In this document: positions 9,816 through 59,185 of the stretch, one piece after another
Layout: the number at the start of each line of letters is the position of its first letter
How positions within the stretch are numbered: the first letter of the stretch is position 1
From: Methanococcoides sp. AM1
GTDB taxonomy: Archaea; Halobacteriota; Methanosarcinia; Methanosarcinales; Methanosarcinaceae
Direction: 5' to 3'
DNA length: 64,000 nucleotides
Assembly: GCF_900774055.1 (NCBI RefSeq)
Contig: NZ_CAAGSW010000002.1
Coordinates: forward strand, 372,001 to 436,000
Position numbers and translations under genes: made by a program
The notes under the pieces: model-generated
Told to the model about the DNA's origin: nothing
The model's database searches: none
The model's input: the letters and a program-made list of their open reading frames with translations, nothing else

Positions 9816-9956
9816 TTTTTTATTGTTTCTGTTATTCCTGGATTATCATCGGGTATATCATCACGTTAAACAATTACAATTAAAAATAATTAAAGTTTGT
9901 TTTATTACGAATGAGTTTTTACTACACCTTTACCTGATCTTCTGGTGTTGATCAAA

Positions 9957-11117
9957 ATGATAACGGATCCAATTTGTAAAGCTCATGTAACTGAGAACAG
10001 TAATTATGTTACGAATTATGGCGGGAAGAAGTACTACTTTTGTTCTGCGGAATGCAAGAATAAGTTCGATCAACTGGAAAAGAGTGTAATACGCTTGAAG
10101 CGCAATATTGGTGAGCGCGAAAGGATCTCTTTTGGTAAGCTGAAAAAAGAGATCATAAATCTTGGGATCTGCACTTTGTGCGGTGCCTGTGTCTCTTCCT
10201 GTGAGTCTATAGCATTTGTGGGTAAGCAGCCTAAACTGATCGACAAATGTACTGCCTGCGGTGTCTGCTATAACCAGTGCCCGAGAACAGTTACAAGGGA
10301 AGAGGATCTTGTGGGAAAACTCAGGTTCGGATATGCTGCCAGATCTTCAATTTCCGGGTTTAAGGGCCAGGATGGTGGTGTTGTCACCTCCCTTCTTGCA
10401 TACGGGCTTGAGGAAGGCCTGCTGGATTGTGCCATAGTCACAAGGAGGTCGGACGATGATCCCTGGAAAGCTGAGCCTTTTATTGCAACTACTGCGGATG
10501 AACTCTTTGAGTCTGCCGGGAGTATCTATTCCCACAGCATGACCATGGAGCCTCTGATGAGTGCTATCAAGCAGGGTATGAGGAGCATTGCATTTGTCGG
10601 ACCGAGTTGTAATATCGATGCTGTCCACAAGATGCAGACAAGCCCCCACGGCTTTCTTCATCTCTTCCTGAGGGCAAAGGTCCTGAAGTTCGGTCTTTTT
10701 TGCATGGACAGCTTCGAGCACGAAGGTATCAAAGAATTTGTAGAAACACATGGAATGGACCTTAATGATATTGATTCAATGAAGATCCGTAAGGGTGTCT
10801 TCGAATTTGGCATGGCTGATGGTATAAAGAGCTATGATCTCTCAGAACTTGACCAGTACAGGTCTACCTCCTGCAAGTTCTGTACCGATATGGCTGCTGA
10901 GAACTCCGATATATCCTTCGGAGGCGTGGGAACACCGCAGGGCTGGAGCACTGTCCTGGCACGCTCATCTATAGGATAGGAGATACTCTGTGAAGCTATC
11001 GACAATGGCTACATCGAGGCAAGGCGTCTTGAGAAGAAGGAAATGGATCGTGCAGTAAATCTTGCAAAGATGAAGAAGGTACAGATGTATTCCCTGAATC
11101 GCAGGCAGAAAGCCTGA
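9957..11117 (+). CDS. YHS-domain/ferredoxin/FrhB-like F420 oxidoreductase subunit with in-frame UAG
   Basis: From ATG 9957 (GTG 9945 is also possible) the protein begins with a YHS/TRASH-like metal domain: DPIC, then GGKKYYFCSAECKNKF. Two 4Fe-4S motifs follow (CTLCGACVSSCES, CTACGVCYNQCPR), then the FrhB N- and C-terminal domains of F420-reducing hydrogenase/dehydrogenase beta subunits (KGQDGGVVTSLLAYGLEEG, FVGPSCNIDAVHKMQ, CKFCTDMAAENSDISFGGVG). At 10977-10979 an in-frame TAG interrupts the C-terminus. Translation stays open for 45 more codons to TGA at 11117 and reads as the usual family ending: after SSIG comes EILCEAIDNGYIEARRLEKK. I therefore annotate through the TAG, as pyrrolysine or other readthrough. 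Likely role: electron transfer between F420H2 and an iron-sulfur partner; the partner is unknown. Confidence 0.8.
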
Positions 11118-53759: not shown

Positions 53760-53908
53760 AATTTGTAGTTTTGTTCCGTTTGTATATTTCATCCGTTGAG
53801 ATTAATTCTAACGCGCGCATATATCGGCAAACAACTGTCAAAATAGTCATACTCGTCGGCAACATCAAAACCCTTATATAATACATAGAATATTAGAAAA
53901 TCTAACTA

Positions 53909-53937
53909 TTAGTTTATCAAATGATTCGATTATCTAA
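53909..53937. promoter_or_regulatory. Candidate MarR operator
   Basis: TTAGTTTATC (53909-53918) faces GATTATCTAA (53928-53937) across 9 bases; 8 of 10 positions are symmetric. It lies about 25-55 bp after the TATA-like run, where transcription should begin, fitting repression of the operon by its own MarR product (inference). Confidence 0.45.
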
Positions 53938-53981
53938 TCGTCACGGACTAAAAGGTTAGTGCCGTATTCAGGAGGTAAAAT

Positions 53982-54488
53982 TTGGATAAGATCGAGCAAC
54001 TCATCAAACTCCATCTGGAGATGGAACATCTCAAAAGAAAACTTGAGGGTAACATGACTGAGTGTTGCCTGGAAGATGAAGGTCGTACAAGTGCGCACAA
54101 AACCATGAACCGAGCCCTTCTCCTGATATAGAGGGAAGGCGAGATCATGCCTTCTACACTTGCCAGAATCCTTGATTTAAAAAAGAGCAGTGTTACCAGT
54201 CTTATCGATAACCTTGAGAAAGAGGGCTTTGTCTTTCGAAAAGATGATCCCTCTGATCGCAGGAAAGTCCTGATCTCTGTTACCGAAAAAGGCATTGAAC
54301 AGATCAGGAAGGTCTTCAACAAAATGCTTTCGGTCGTAAAAATGTGCATGGATGATATGGATGATGAAAAGCTTGACAAGATCCTTGATGCACAGCTTGT
54401 ATTGATCGAATTTCATCGTCATATGTACGATCGATCGGTCGAACTAGTCGATGAAAAATGTTCTCTTGAATCTAAAAATAAACAATAA
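53982..54488 (+). CDS. MarR-family regulator with in-frame UAG at codon 50
   Basis: TTG 53982 follows AGGAGGTAAAAT. The frame encodes MDKIEQLIKLHLEMEHLKRK, reaches TAG at 54129-54131 (after NRALLLI), and continues without a break as REGEIMPSTLARILDLKKSS, VTSLIDNLEKEGFVFRKDDP, SDRRKVLISVTEKG to TAA at 54488. The part after the TAG is the recognition helix and wing of MarR (D-x-x-D-R-R-K), and the part before it is the dimer helix, so only the whole frame makes a normal 168-aa MarR. ATG 54147 alone would lack the first half of the DNA-binding domain. Either UAG is read, as pyrrolysine in this group, or the gene is broken. It overlaps the transporter gene by one base. Confidence 0.85.
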
Positions 54489-56896
54489 TGGATGAGGGGG
54501 CTATCAGCATAAAAAATGTATTTGAAAAACTGGGGATCTTTATTGAGAATAATACTATCCCTATACTTATAGTAGCATTATTATTTGTCCTTGTCTCTGC
54601 TCAGGGTGCACAGAACATCGCCATGGAATCTGGAACTGAAACATTCGTTGAGAAGACGTCACAATTGTATCAGGATTTTGATCACCTTTACATGAACATC
54701 TTTGGTACCGAAGCCATTGTTATAATGGTGGAGGATGGGCAGGTAAATGATCCCGCTTTGCTGCAAGCGATGGATCGGCTTGATCACATGTCTTCGACAC
54801 TACCCGGTGTTGTAGGAGTACAAAGTGTTTCCTCGTTTGTCAAAGATGCCAATTTCGCTCTCACCGGTGAAGCATCACTTCCTGAAGACAAGGTCGAATT
54901 AGAGTCCCTCCTCAACGACTATGTTCCTGAAGGATTGATGCCGGACGATACTCATACACTTATCTACGTTGAAATAGCAGGCTCTTTAACCGATGACCAG
55001 AAACAGGAGGTACTGAGGGAAGTCGAAACATCTGTAACCTTTGCAGAATTCCCTCCTGACTATAATGTAATAGTAACAGGGGAGCCGGCTTTCATGGTCT
55101 CCATGAACAACGCAATGATGTCAAGTATGGGTGTATTGCTTGGGCTTTCAGTTGTCCTGATGATCGTTGTCCTGTATCTTGTGTTCGGTCATGTCAGGTG
55201 GAGGTTAATGCCTCTTGCTATTGTTCTGCTGGGTATCATATACACATTTGGTGCTATGGGCTATCTGGAGATACCAATGACCATGGTCTCAATGGCCGCA
55301 TTTCCAGTACTGATCGGTCTGGGTATAGATTATGCCATCCAGTTCCATAATCGTATAGAAGAGGAGCTTGAACGTGGTGAGACGCCGGCAGAGGCAGTGG
55401 TGGATACTATCAAGCACACCGGCCCTGCTGTCCTGATCGCCCTTATAATCACAGCACTAGGATTCTTTTCCCTTTTGACATCAAGCGTACCTATGATACA
55501 GGATTTTGCGAAGCTGCTTCTCATAGGTATTGTGATGTGCTTCCTTGCTTCCCTGTTCGTAGGTGTGACTGTGATATATGGTCTTGACAACATGCAATCG
55601 ATACGCAAGGAGAAGTTCGGACACTTGTCCCTGAGAGGCAAAAACAAATCAAAGACATCATCTCCCGGTACTGGAGAACCCAAGCCGGACATTCTGGACA
55701 GGTTCCTGGGTCGAACTACCCATTTCACCATAAAACATCCTTTCATGATTCTGTCCATTGCTGTTCTGCTTTGTGCCGGTGGCTTGGTGGCTGATACTCA
55801 GGTAGGGATCCAGACAGATACGGAAACCTTTGTCCCACAGGACCTACCGGCATTGATCAACCTAGGACATCTTTCTGATATCACTGGTGGTGAGGACCAG
55901 CTGAATATTATCATCAAGACCGACAATGTTGCTGATCCTGAGACTTTGAAGTGGGTGGATGAGTTCAGCTCTCATGAAGTAGATAGCCGGAACAATATCA
56001 TTGGGGCGGAAAGCATGGCCAGTGTCATTAAGTCGATGAATGGCGGTATGATTCCTGAAAGTGAGTCTGAGATAAGATCTTTGTATGAACAGATACCTGC
56101 TCAGCAAAAAGACCGTTTCATGTACGGTGAGAATATGCTCCTGCTTAACCTGAACATTGGTGATGTAATGGGAAGCATTGGAATGGAGGGGGTTGAAGTC
56201 CTTGCGGATATTGTGAGGGAGGATATGCTGTGGATGTCCCCGCCTCCCGGAATGACAGCTACGATAACCGGAAGCAACGTTGTGTTCATAGAAGTTATTG
56301 GAGCCCTCACGTCAGGGCGTATCTTTATGACATACCTGGGACTGGGCTTGGTATTCGGTGGACTTCTTCTGATCTACCGCGATCTTCTCAAGGCACTTGT
56401 GCCGGTAGTGACAATGTTCATGGTCATTGGCTGGTCCGGAGGACTGATGTACTTGCTGGGTATGGAATATAATCCAATGACAGCTACACTGGGTGCACTT
56501 ATCCTTGGTGTGGGTTCCGAGTATGCTGTACTTATGATGGAGAGATATTTTGAGGAAAAGGCGAAAGGTGCCAGTCCTGAAGAAGCAATGACCGAAGCAG
56601 GAGTAAAGATCGGAAAAGCGATAGTCACTTCCGGACTTACGACACTGTTCGGTTTCTGTGCACTGGTAGCTTCCGATTTCAATATGATCAGCGGCTTTGG
56701 TATGATCACTGTAATAGATGTAGGGCTTGCCCTATTCGCAACATTTGTGATCTTCCCTCCTGTGATGGTATTGCTCGATAATTTCCGTGAAAAGAGGAAG
56801 GCAAAAAAGATAATACTTGATAGATCATTCGAAGATGATGTATCAACGACAAAAATAACAAAATATAGCGCTGACCCGGAGGCTGATGCCTTTTGA
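54488..56896 (+). CDS. MMPL/RND-type exporter (HAE3-like)
   Basis: The 802-aa protein starts at ATG 54488 (one-base overlap with marR). It has the RND duplication: a first helix (NTIPILIVALLFVLVSA), an extracytoplasmic loop, then five helices. This is repeated in the second half from about residue 420 (HFTIKHPFMILSIAVLLCAG). The MMPL motif GLGIDYAIQFHNRIEEELER appears once, with a matching LGVGSEYAVLMMERYFEEKA in the second half; both carry the polar residues of the proton path. HAE3-type members export hydrophobic compounds or lipids. Regulation by the upstream MarR and cooperation with the two downstream COG1361 proteins are expected. Confidence 0.94.
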   Translation: MDEGAISIKNVFEKLGIFIENNTIPILIVALLFVLVSAQGAQNIAMESGTETFVEKTSQLYQDFDHLYMNIFGTEAIVIMVEDGQVNDPALLQAMDRLDHMSSTLPGVVGVQSVSSFVKDANFALTGEASLPEDKVELESLLNDYVPEGLMPDDTHTLIYVEIAGSLTDDQKQEVLREVETSVTFAEFPPDYNVIVTGEPAFMVSMNNAMMSSMGVLLGLSVVLMIVVLYLVFGHVRWRLMPLAIVLLGIIYTFGAMGYLEIPMTMVSMAAFPVLIGLGIDYAIQFHNRIEEELERGETPAEAVVDTIKHTGPAVLIALIITALGFFSLLTSSVPMIQDFAKLLLIGIVMCFLASLFVGVTVIYGLDNMQSIRKEKFGHLSLRGKNKSKTSSPGTGEPKPDILDRFLGRTTHFTIKHPFMILSIAVLLCAGGLVADTQVGIQTDTETFVPQDLPALINLGHLSDITGGEDQLNIIIKTDNVADPETLKWVDEFSSHEVDSRNNIIGAESMASVIKSMNGGMIPESESEIRSLYEQIPAQQKDRFMYGENMLLLNLNIGDVMGSIGMEGVEVLADIVREDMLWMSPPPGMTATITGSNVVFIEVIGALTSGRIFMTYLGLGLVFGGLLLIYRDLLKALVPVVTMFMVIGWSGGLMYLLGMEYNPMTATLGALILGVGSEYAVLMMERYFEEKAKGASPEEAMTEAGVKIGKAIVTSGLTTLFGFCALVASDFNMISGFGMITVIDVGLALFATFVIFPPVMVLLDNFREKRKAKKIILDRSFEDDVSTTKITKYSADPEADAF

Positions 56897-58002
56897 TGAA
56901 CTGTAAAAACACACAAAAAAACAGATATGTGAATTCAGCAGTTGTGATGGCTGTTCTGCTGACTGCAGCTCTATTTGCGGTCACGGTCGTATCCCCTGCT
57001 GCCGGAGCAAAAGAGTTCATACAGCCCAACTCTGAATTCTCTACCAATTATTATGATGCCTACGGTGAACCGGACCTCTATGCTTCCGTTCTCGGAGACA
57101 CCGAGTTTGAGAGAGGCGAGACTGCACAGGTCCGCATTGTTCTCTCGAACAGAGGTGTACTGTACGGTTTCAAGGCTAAGACTGATGTGGATACAAATAA
57201 TGGAGAACATGCACTGTCTTTAAAGGAGATCGAATATGAGTCATTGAGGACTACTGCTTTTGGGGTTAAGGCTGAGATGGTCTCGACCACAGACTATATC
57301 GAGGTCGACCCCACCACAAGTGTCCGGACACTTGATAGTCTATACCCCGGAGTGTTGCCGGATGATCCGATGTCGTTTACTATAACTATCTCTGACAATG
57401 CTCCTGCAGGAAATTACATGCTTTTGATGCCTGTCAGTTATGAGTTCCAGAGTCAGGTCGAGATGACTGATGGTAGTACTGTAAGGCTTGGGTTGCCTGA
57501 GCTTGACCATACCACATTCTACAAGACAAGGAACACTACCCTTCAGATTCCTCTAGTGATCGAACCAGCTGCAAAGTTCGTAGTATCCGAAGTGGATGGT
57601 GAGCTTACATCCGGACAGTCAGGTACCATTAATGTTACTTACACAAATGTGGGTGAGGTCGAAGCAGCTGATGCTTTTGCTCGGATTATTGTGATGAAAC
57701 CGTTGAGTTCTGACAGGTCAGTTGTAAACCTGGGCAATATCGGACCGGGAGAAAGTAAGACCGCATCATTTGATCTTGCTGCGGAGATCTCTGCAGTTGA
57801 GAAGAATTACGGAATTGATAGTGAGATCAAGTATTGTGATGAGGACGGTGAAATACAGTTCTCGGACAACATTATTGTCGAGGTCCCTCTTAAGTCAAGA
57901 AAGGCAAGTATCAGCATAACGACGCTGGCACTTGCAGGAATACTTCTGATAGGAGCTTACATGGGATACAATACGATACGGAAGATGAACGGCAAAAAGT
58001 AA
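56896..58002 (+). CDS. COG1361-type surface protein, first of a pair
   Basis: ATG 56896 shares one base with the exporter stop; TTG 56893 is an alternative. A signal peptide (SAVVMAVLLTAALFAVTVVS-PAAGA) leads to a mature region of beta domains; the second (residues about 225-325) reads as a CARDB/DUF11-like fold with SGTINVTYTNVGEVEAADAF. One C-terminal membrane helix (SITTLALAGILLIGAYMGYN) is followed by a basic end. S-layer-related COG1361 proteins are regularly found with MMPL exporters in methanogens and may act as their outside adaptors. The next gene is a paralogue. Confidence 0.85.
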   Translation: MNCKNTQKNRYVNSAVVMAVLLTAALFAVTVVSPAAGAKEFIQPNSEFSTNYYDAYGEPDLYASVLGDTEFERGETAQVRIVLSNRGVLYGFKAKTDVDTNNGEHALSLKEIEYESLRTTAFGVKAEMVSTTDYIEVDPTTSVRTLDSLYPGVLPDDPMSFTITISDNAPAGNYMLLMPVSYEFQSQVEMTDGSTVRLGLPELDHTTFYKTRNTTLQIPLVIEPAAKFVVSEVDGELTSGQSGTINVTYTNVGEVEAADAFARIIVMKPLSSDRSVVNLGNIGPGESKTASFDLAAEISAVEKNYGIDSEIKYCDEDGEIQFSDNIIVEVPLKSRKASISITTLALAGILLIGAYMGYNTIRKMNGKK

Positions 58003-58045: not shown

Positions 58046-59185
58046 ATGTTTAAAATGACAGATTCCAGATACGCTTTGCCAATTATGGCCTCACTTGCTG
58101 TATTGTTGCTTTTTGCAGCACCGGTACACGCAGAGTCTACACTTCCATCGAATGGTGAGTTTACGGCAGCTAATGCGGAACTACCTGATTTCTTTAATTT
58201 TGGTGAGAACTATTATACCGTATTTGGTGGTCCCGATGTGACTGCGACCCTCATTGGTGATAATGAGTTCGAACGTGGTGATACCGTTACACTGAACCTC
58301 GATCTGATGAACAAGGGTCTGATCACAGGTTTCAGGTCGGAGGAAGATGATTTCTACCTTACTCAGCTGGAGCAGAAGTTGCAGAGAACCGAAATGTCCT
58401 ATGAATCACAGCGAACGACAGCTATCGGTATCGTTGCTATCCTGACCCCTCTTGACCCTGCTATCAAAGTAAAGTCCGGTCCCCAGGAAGCAGGTACTCT
58501 TGTATCTGGGCAGAAGACCGAATCTCCTGTCAGGTTCAATGTAGAGATCTCAAAGAATGCGGAGTCGGGTAGCTACCCTATGCGCCTTGATCTCTACTAT
58601 GGATATCAGAAGAATGTCCAGATAAATGGCGACAATGAGACCGATCTTGGAATTACTAATATGGAGGTCGGACTCTGGTATGATGTAGGTGGGCAGAACA
58701 CTACCTTTGATATATTTGTGAAGGATGAGGCAAGGTTCGAGGTAACGAATGTATCCGGTGACCTATATCCTGACACCGAAGGTCTGCTATATGTTACCTT
58801 TGAGAATGTGGGTGATCTTCCTGCAAAGGATGCGATTGTGAGGATAAGTGCTGCTGATCCGTTCAGTACTACCGATGACCAGGCATTCCTGGGTACACTT
58901 GATTCCGGCGAGAGCACTGTTGCAGTGTTCAAACTAAAGGTCGATGATCTTGCAGTACCGAAGGCTTATGCACTGAACAGTGAGATCAAGTATGAGGATA
59001 CTGACGGGCATGACAGTATCTCGGACACGGTGAAGATCAAGACTGAAATTCTCCCTGCATCTGCAAATGACAGTGGCTCCGGCATGACCGGGATCATTAT
59101 TGGCGCAGTACTGTTAATAGTGATCGCTGGTGGGGCTTATTTTGTTTATCGCAGCAGGTCTTCAAATAACAGCAACGATGAGTGA
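58046..59185 (+). CDS. COG1361-type surface protein, second of a pair
   Basis: The 379-aa protein has the same layout as its upstream neighbour: signal peptide (MASLAVLLLFAAPVHA), beta domains with the shared block GDNEFERGDTVTLNLDLMNK and TEGLLYVTFENVGDLPAKDA, and a C-terminal membrane helix (GIIIGAVLLIVIAGGAYFVY). Shared phrases such as FERGD/FERGE-T and ALNSEIKYEDTDG/GIDSEIKYCDEDG show a gene duplication. GAAGAGG precedes the ATG. It ends the MarR-MMPL operon, followed by a terminator. Confidence 0.85.
   Translation: MFKMTDSRYALPIMASLAVLLLFAAPVHAESTLPSNGEFTAANAELPDFFNFGENYYTVFGGPDVTATLIGDNEFERGDTVTLNLDLMNKGLITGFRSEEDDFYLTQLEQKLQRTEMSYESQRTTAIGIVAILTPLDPAIKVKSGPQEAGTLVSGQKTESPVRFNVEISKNAESGSYPMRLDLYYGYQKNVQINGDNETDLGITNMEVGLWYDVGGQNTTFDIFVKDEARFEVTNVSGDLYPDTEGLLYVTFENVGDLPAKDAIVRISAADPFSTTDDQAFLGTLDSGESTVAVFKLKVDDLAVPKAYALNSEIKYEDTDGHDSISDTVKIKTEILPASANDSGSGMTGIIIGAVLLIVIAGGAYFVYRSRSSNNSNDE

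Follow-up and report, generated by a model that had tools for sequence, protein, structure and literature searches.

An in-frame UAG codon, probably read as pyrrolysine, in a MarR repressor gene of Methanococcoides

Introduction

Within a 64,000-nucleotide stretch of Methanococcoides sp. AM1 DNA (the window, to which positions refer unless a contig or locus is named), a MarR-family repressor gene at 53982-54488 on the plus strand carries a TAG triplet inside its reading frame. The locus raises the question of whether this triplet ends translation, adjusts the amount of repressor or simply encodes an amino acid. The nearest match of the genome's RuBisCO is PDB 5mac, the Methanococcoides burtonii enzyme, which fits this genus. 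An earlier note, made from the sequence alone, proposed that MarR levels follow the supply of pyrrolysine (Pyl) or Pyl-tRNA, thereby tying an exporter operon to methylamine nutrition.

Kivenson and colleagues reportedly described, in Science in 2025, an archaeal ‘Pyl code’ in which TAG is consistently read as pyrrolysine, probably covering this genus as well. That code resembles the present genome in the genome-wide loss of TAG stops and in housekeeping genes containing TAG. The tRNAHis guanylyltransferase Thg1 of Methanosarcina acetivorans has an in-frame TAG that is translatable as Pyl and dispensable for activity (PMC2933860, citing Heinemann et al. 2009). Like marR, its gene encodes no methyltransferase and has gained a TAG within the frame; the Thg1 TAG, however, occurs in one species only, whereas that of marR occurs in four species and interrupts a DNA-binding regulator. 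A conserved in-frame TAG is also present in the TetR-family regulator MA2902 and its M. barkeri homologue, where its status has been called unclear (PMC1914089). MA2902 resembles marR in regulating transcription and in having its in-frame TAG conserved among methanogens that use Pyl, and differs in belonging to the TetR family rather than to MarR. We know of no operator or selection analysis of MA2902. A literature search found no other MarR with an in-frame TAG.

Results

The marR reading frame and its product

Reading positions 53970-54488 confirms the arrangement described in the earlier note: a Shine-Dalgarno sequence (AGGAGGT, 53970-53976), a TTG start, 49 codons, TAG, 118 codons and a TAA stop (54486-54488), all on the plus strand and in one frame throughout. 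The TAG is codon 50 (54129-54131), a predicted pyrrolysine, and with it counted as a residue the product has 168 residues. The Shine-Dalgarno sequence is found at the equivalent place in all orthologues, in the form GGAGG(T) or GGAGA. The read-through product matches the Pfam MarR family (PF01047) above the cut-off over residues 44-96, with an E-value of 2.8e-13, compared with 1.3e-10 for the part following an internal ATG (54147-54149) alone. The match crosses the TAG, and the proposal that the two halves join into a normal MarR holds. The codon-usage score is coding-like on either side of the TAG (6.4 and 26.4 bits), a both-sided signal that is clear in only 3 of the 50 TAG-spanning ORFs in 436 kb of the same contig.

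The AlphaFold monomer model (mean pLDDT 87.5) displays the MarR layout and helix order, with the fold and domain order of MarR/YusO/BldR/ST1710-type repressors. Residue 50 belongs to the final turn of helix 2, directly before the first strand, and outside both the recognition helix (residues 68-80) and the wing. These two elements follow residue 50, as the earlier note had stated; the dimer helix, which it had placed before the TAG, is instead represented on both sides, with helix 1 before and helices 5-6 after. Foldseek and sequence searches with the product match MarR proteins, and a scan of the genome_contigs collection returns only distant bacterial MarRs.

TAG usage and the pyrrolysine machinery

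The TAG census covers 2.17 Mb of the 2.48-Mb genome and uses a simple codon score that may leave out or wrongly include a few genes. Within it, 1819 coding-like ORFs end at TGA (949), TAA (844) or TAG (26). About 327 TAG stops are expected, TAG forming 18% of stop triplets overall, which agrees with the earlier remark that TAG stops are almost absent elsewhere. Most of the 26 TAG-ending ORFs run on in coding-like sequence, while a handful, notably pylB, end at TAG with tails that are non-coding-like or only 2-4 codons long. The near loss of TAG as a stop, together with the continuation of most TAG-ending ORFs, indicates that UAG is read routinely.

The genes spanning a TAG include six methylamine methyltransferase genes, chorismate synthase, an aspartase/fumarase-type lyase, histidine kinases, an ABC ATPase, an FrhB-like gene and others. 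Chorismate synthase (L177:17489-18598, plus strand), matched end to end by an NCBIfam equivalog, is interrupted by TAG at codon 312; of the 10 genus genomes in which the gene was matched, 8 have a TAG in it and two, G001 and G006, have none. The second TAG case announced for the 64 kb is real: an FrhB-like F420 hydrogenase/dehydrogenase beta-type gene (9945-11114, plus strand) is interrupted by TAG at codon 345, a position within its Pfam domain, and its orthologue has one TAG in six genus genomes and none in four. Comparison of the marR TAG with about 19 other TAG-spanning genes found no distinguishing feature. A strongly coding-like ORF of 432 codons (C2:365753-367048, plus strand of the same contig; L075:5753-7048) also contains a TAG, at codon 162, and has no Pfam match.

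PylS, tRNA-Pyl with a CUA anticodon and PylB are all encoded in the 2.48-Mb genome, so that the absence of a pyl system, which the earlier note had named as an objection to its own reading, does not apply. Both PylS and PylB occur in 11 of 11 genus genomes. The AM1 genome encodes one class-I release factor that scores above the cut-off of its family, which makes some termination at UAG possible. The pylB gene itself (C2:251786-253045, minus strand; L069:11786-13045) ends at TAG in all 11 genomes, followed by about 42 open in-frame codons and then TGA. UAG is therefore not formally free of stop use, as pylB appears to end naturally there. A Pyl-made tail on PylB, the Pyl-synthesis enzyme, could serve as a feedback device, and the conservation of the tail may have its cause in an overlapping pylC start. 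The pylB TAG has already been reported for M. burtonii (PMC2933860).

Codon 50 in the genus

The orthologue comparison comprises the ten genus genomes with a marR orthologue, including AM1 (G000). The homologue comparison proposed in the earlier note gives a divided picture: TAG occupies the identical column in four species (G000, G007, G004 and G006), and the remaining six have TGG (G001), CGG (G010), AAG (G005, G008 and G009) or AAA (G002). The common TAG column in four species is, judged from these alignments, beyond chance. Codon 50 is a tolerant helix-end position, variable across the genus, with Lys, Arg or Trp in the relatives. The whole gene, with its Shine-Dalgarno sequence and a TTG or GTG start, is present in 10 of 10 genomes; in G004 the natural TAA stop is codon 164. 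No orthologue lacking the first half exists among the ten, so that relatives starting at the ATG at 54147, which the earlier note had named as a further objection to its own reading, do not occur there, and this ATG is ruled out as the true gene start.

The TAG plausibly arose from TGG by a single G-to-A change. Because one transition separates TGG from TAG and another separates CGG from TGG, a route from Lys or Arg through Trp to Pyl is plausible. The trees of marR and of the flanking genes disagree, and one topology from the flanking-gene tree is rejected for MarR (AU test, p 1e-4). The AU test neither favours nor rejects a MarR tree in which the TAG alleles are monophyletic (p 0.105), and is compatible with either one or two origins of TAG. 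Within part of MarR, pairwise identity between G006 and G001 drops to 0.68, against mostly 0.85 or more around it, and that between G000 and G007 reaches 0.90-0.93 at marR. The tree conflict and the sharp identity shifts suggest that TAG alleles moved between species; marR alleles were probably exchanged locally within the genus, against the flanking-gene tree.

Selection on both sides of the TAG

Two within-carrier pairs, G000-G007 and G004-G006, were taken together in a test of synonymous against nonsynonymous differences. In both halves the synonymous differences are in excess (first half, p 2.2e-6; second half, p 7.3e-10). Over all carrier pairs, dN/dS ranges from 0.07 to 0.17 in the first half and from 0.13 to 0.23 in the second, with dS between TAG carriers reaching about 1. 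Neither relaxed selection nor further disabling changes were found in marR among the genus orthologues. Since both halves are under selection in the TAG carriers, both are made, most simply as one protein, and the earlier judgement that decay is a less likely explanation stands, with a TAG held by four species and purifying selection on either side of it. Sequencing error is ruled out by the occurrence of the TAG in four genomes and the low dN/dS around it.

Among the four carriers, nucleotide differences occur in 104 of the 162 codons other than the TAG, and the remaining 58 are constant. The retention of the TAG is thus unremarkable, and gives no sign of selection for Pyl itself.

The operator array and the exporter operon

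Upstream of marR, a putative archaeal TATA box, TTATATAA (53874-53881, plus strand), belongs to a TTATATA-like element equally placed in 10 of 10 loci. It is followed on the same strand by three predicted operator sites: TTAGAAAATCTAA (53893-53905), an imperfect palindrome conserved in 10 of 10 species, whose exact 13-mer occurs once in 2.17 Mb; TTAGTTTATCAAA (53909-53921), 16 bp further on; and TTCGATTATCTAA (53925-53937), another 16 bp downstream and the most variable of the three. The 16-bp period is kept in 10 of 10 species. For this genome alone, the best upstream imperfect palindrome scores inside the upper range of shuffled sequence; the case for an operator rests on the conserved spacing.

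The operon continues on the plus strand with an MMPL/RND-type exporter gene (54488-56896; Pfam MMPL, E 1.4e-60; syntenic in 10 of 10 species), a CARDB-domain protein that is probably secreted or membrane-anchored (56893-58002) and a weakly NPCBM_assoc/NEW3-like protein (58046-59185), the last two assigned to the operon by Pfam and synteny. The order marR, MMPL, CARDB, NEW3-like, aIF2-gamma is preserved in 10 of 10 species. A MarR dimer would bind the three 13-bp palindromic sites, which lie at 16-bp spacing immediately after the TATA box, and would keep its own operon (marR, the MMPL exporter and the two CARDB/NEW3-like proteins) repressed until released by a ligand. The array and the conserved operon fit such an autorepressing MarR, with DNA binding and autorepression predicted from sequence. 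The six orthologues with Trp, Arg or Lys at codon 50 have the same operator array, operon and flanks as the TAG carriers, indicating that the circuit works without UAG.

At the start of the MMPL gene (54488-54530), an ATG shares bases with the stop codon of marR (TAATG) in the AM1 genome. Most relatives seem to have no canonical start here: a GGAGG-like stretch is followed by in-frame ATC or ATA, with no ATG, GTG or TTG. The exporter gene may be translationally coupled to marR or may start at a non-AUG codon.

Discussion

The evidence is best accounted for by an intact, conventional autoregulating MarR repressor of the MMPL exporter operon, whose UAG serves as a sense codon, most probably for pyrrolysine, that arrived by near-neutral drift (probability about 0.88). 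The readthrough proposed earlier is supported by the conserved TAG, selection on both halves and the pyl machinery; the marR UAG is almost certainly read through, probably as pyrrolysine. We infer that marR is expressed, that Pyl is the inserted residue and that readthrough is efficient. The TAG would have arisen in marR because the lineage reads UAG as Pyl almost everywhere, and pyrrolysine would have reached codon 50 by drift via Lys, Arg and Trp codons.

The regulatory reading of the earlier note, with MarR levels following the supply of pyrrolysine or Pyl-tRNA and the exporter tied to methylamine nutrition, fares best among the alternatives and is nonetheless improbable. In principle UAG readthrough can vary with the supply of Pyl, the marR TAG has been kept in four species over a dS of about 1, and a TetR-family transcription factor with an in-frame TAG is known in Methanosarcina (PMC1914089). 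The link to nutrition is nevertheless left unsupported on two counts: orthologues with W, R or K retain the operator array and the operon, and chorismate synthase also needs UAG to be read. As UAG interrupts this enzyme, the cell must have Pyl-tRNA at hand whenever it makes aromatic amino acids, and the supply should be constant; since a core biosynthetic enzyme already requires Pyl-tRNA under normal conditions, the data can be explained with no supply-dependent switch at marR. The equal constancy of 58 of the 162 other codons among the four carriers points the same way. An equally improbable form of conditional decoding would have low Pyl-tRNA cause a stop at codon 50, perhaps with a restart at the ATG at 54147, whereupon the changed MarR and the lost coupling into the exporter gene would reset exporter expression. 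Were it true, envelope export would be linked to the methylamine/pyrrolysine state of the cell.

A split gene, stopped at the TAG and re-initiated at 54147, would yield a 113-residue winged-helix protein, possibly besides full-length MarR. This ATG, a conserved Met of the MarR domain, is in frame 15 nt past the TAG and is preceded by a purine-rich, Shine-Dalgarno-like stretch, making it a hypothetical re-initiation site. Orthologues with a sense codon at position 50 have both features too, as internal codons; purifying selection acts on the first 49 codons, and the 113-residue product would be devoid of helices 1 and 2. Re-initiation is accordingly a slim prospect. Slimmer still is readthrough by near-cognate misreading, in which codon 50 would receive a residue other than Pyl: the inserted residue is deduced rather than observed, yet pylS, pylB and the CUA tRNA-Pyl are present, and methylamine methyltransferase genes of the same genome carry in-frame TAGs. 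A decaying pseudogene, for which a stop codon in the standard code speaks formally, is the least credible reading, as the TAG is common to four species, dN/dS is low on both sides within the carriers, and the start, Shine-Dalgarno sequence, operator array and synteny are intact.

In conclusion, marR is a genuine new example of a gene whose internal TAG almost certainly encodes Pyl. It lies in a genome that reads TAG as pyrrolysine almost throughout, and its UAG has the look of an ordinary codon rather than of a switch tied to nutrition. Gene callers using table 11 will present this MarR as two fragments or as a pseudogene. The locus offers a clean comparative case of pyrrolysine entering a tolerant site of a DNA-binding regulator and being kept in several species, with sister species carrying Lys, Arg or Trp, and it supports UAG as an everyday sense codon in this lineage, beyond the methylamine enzymes.
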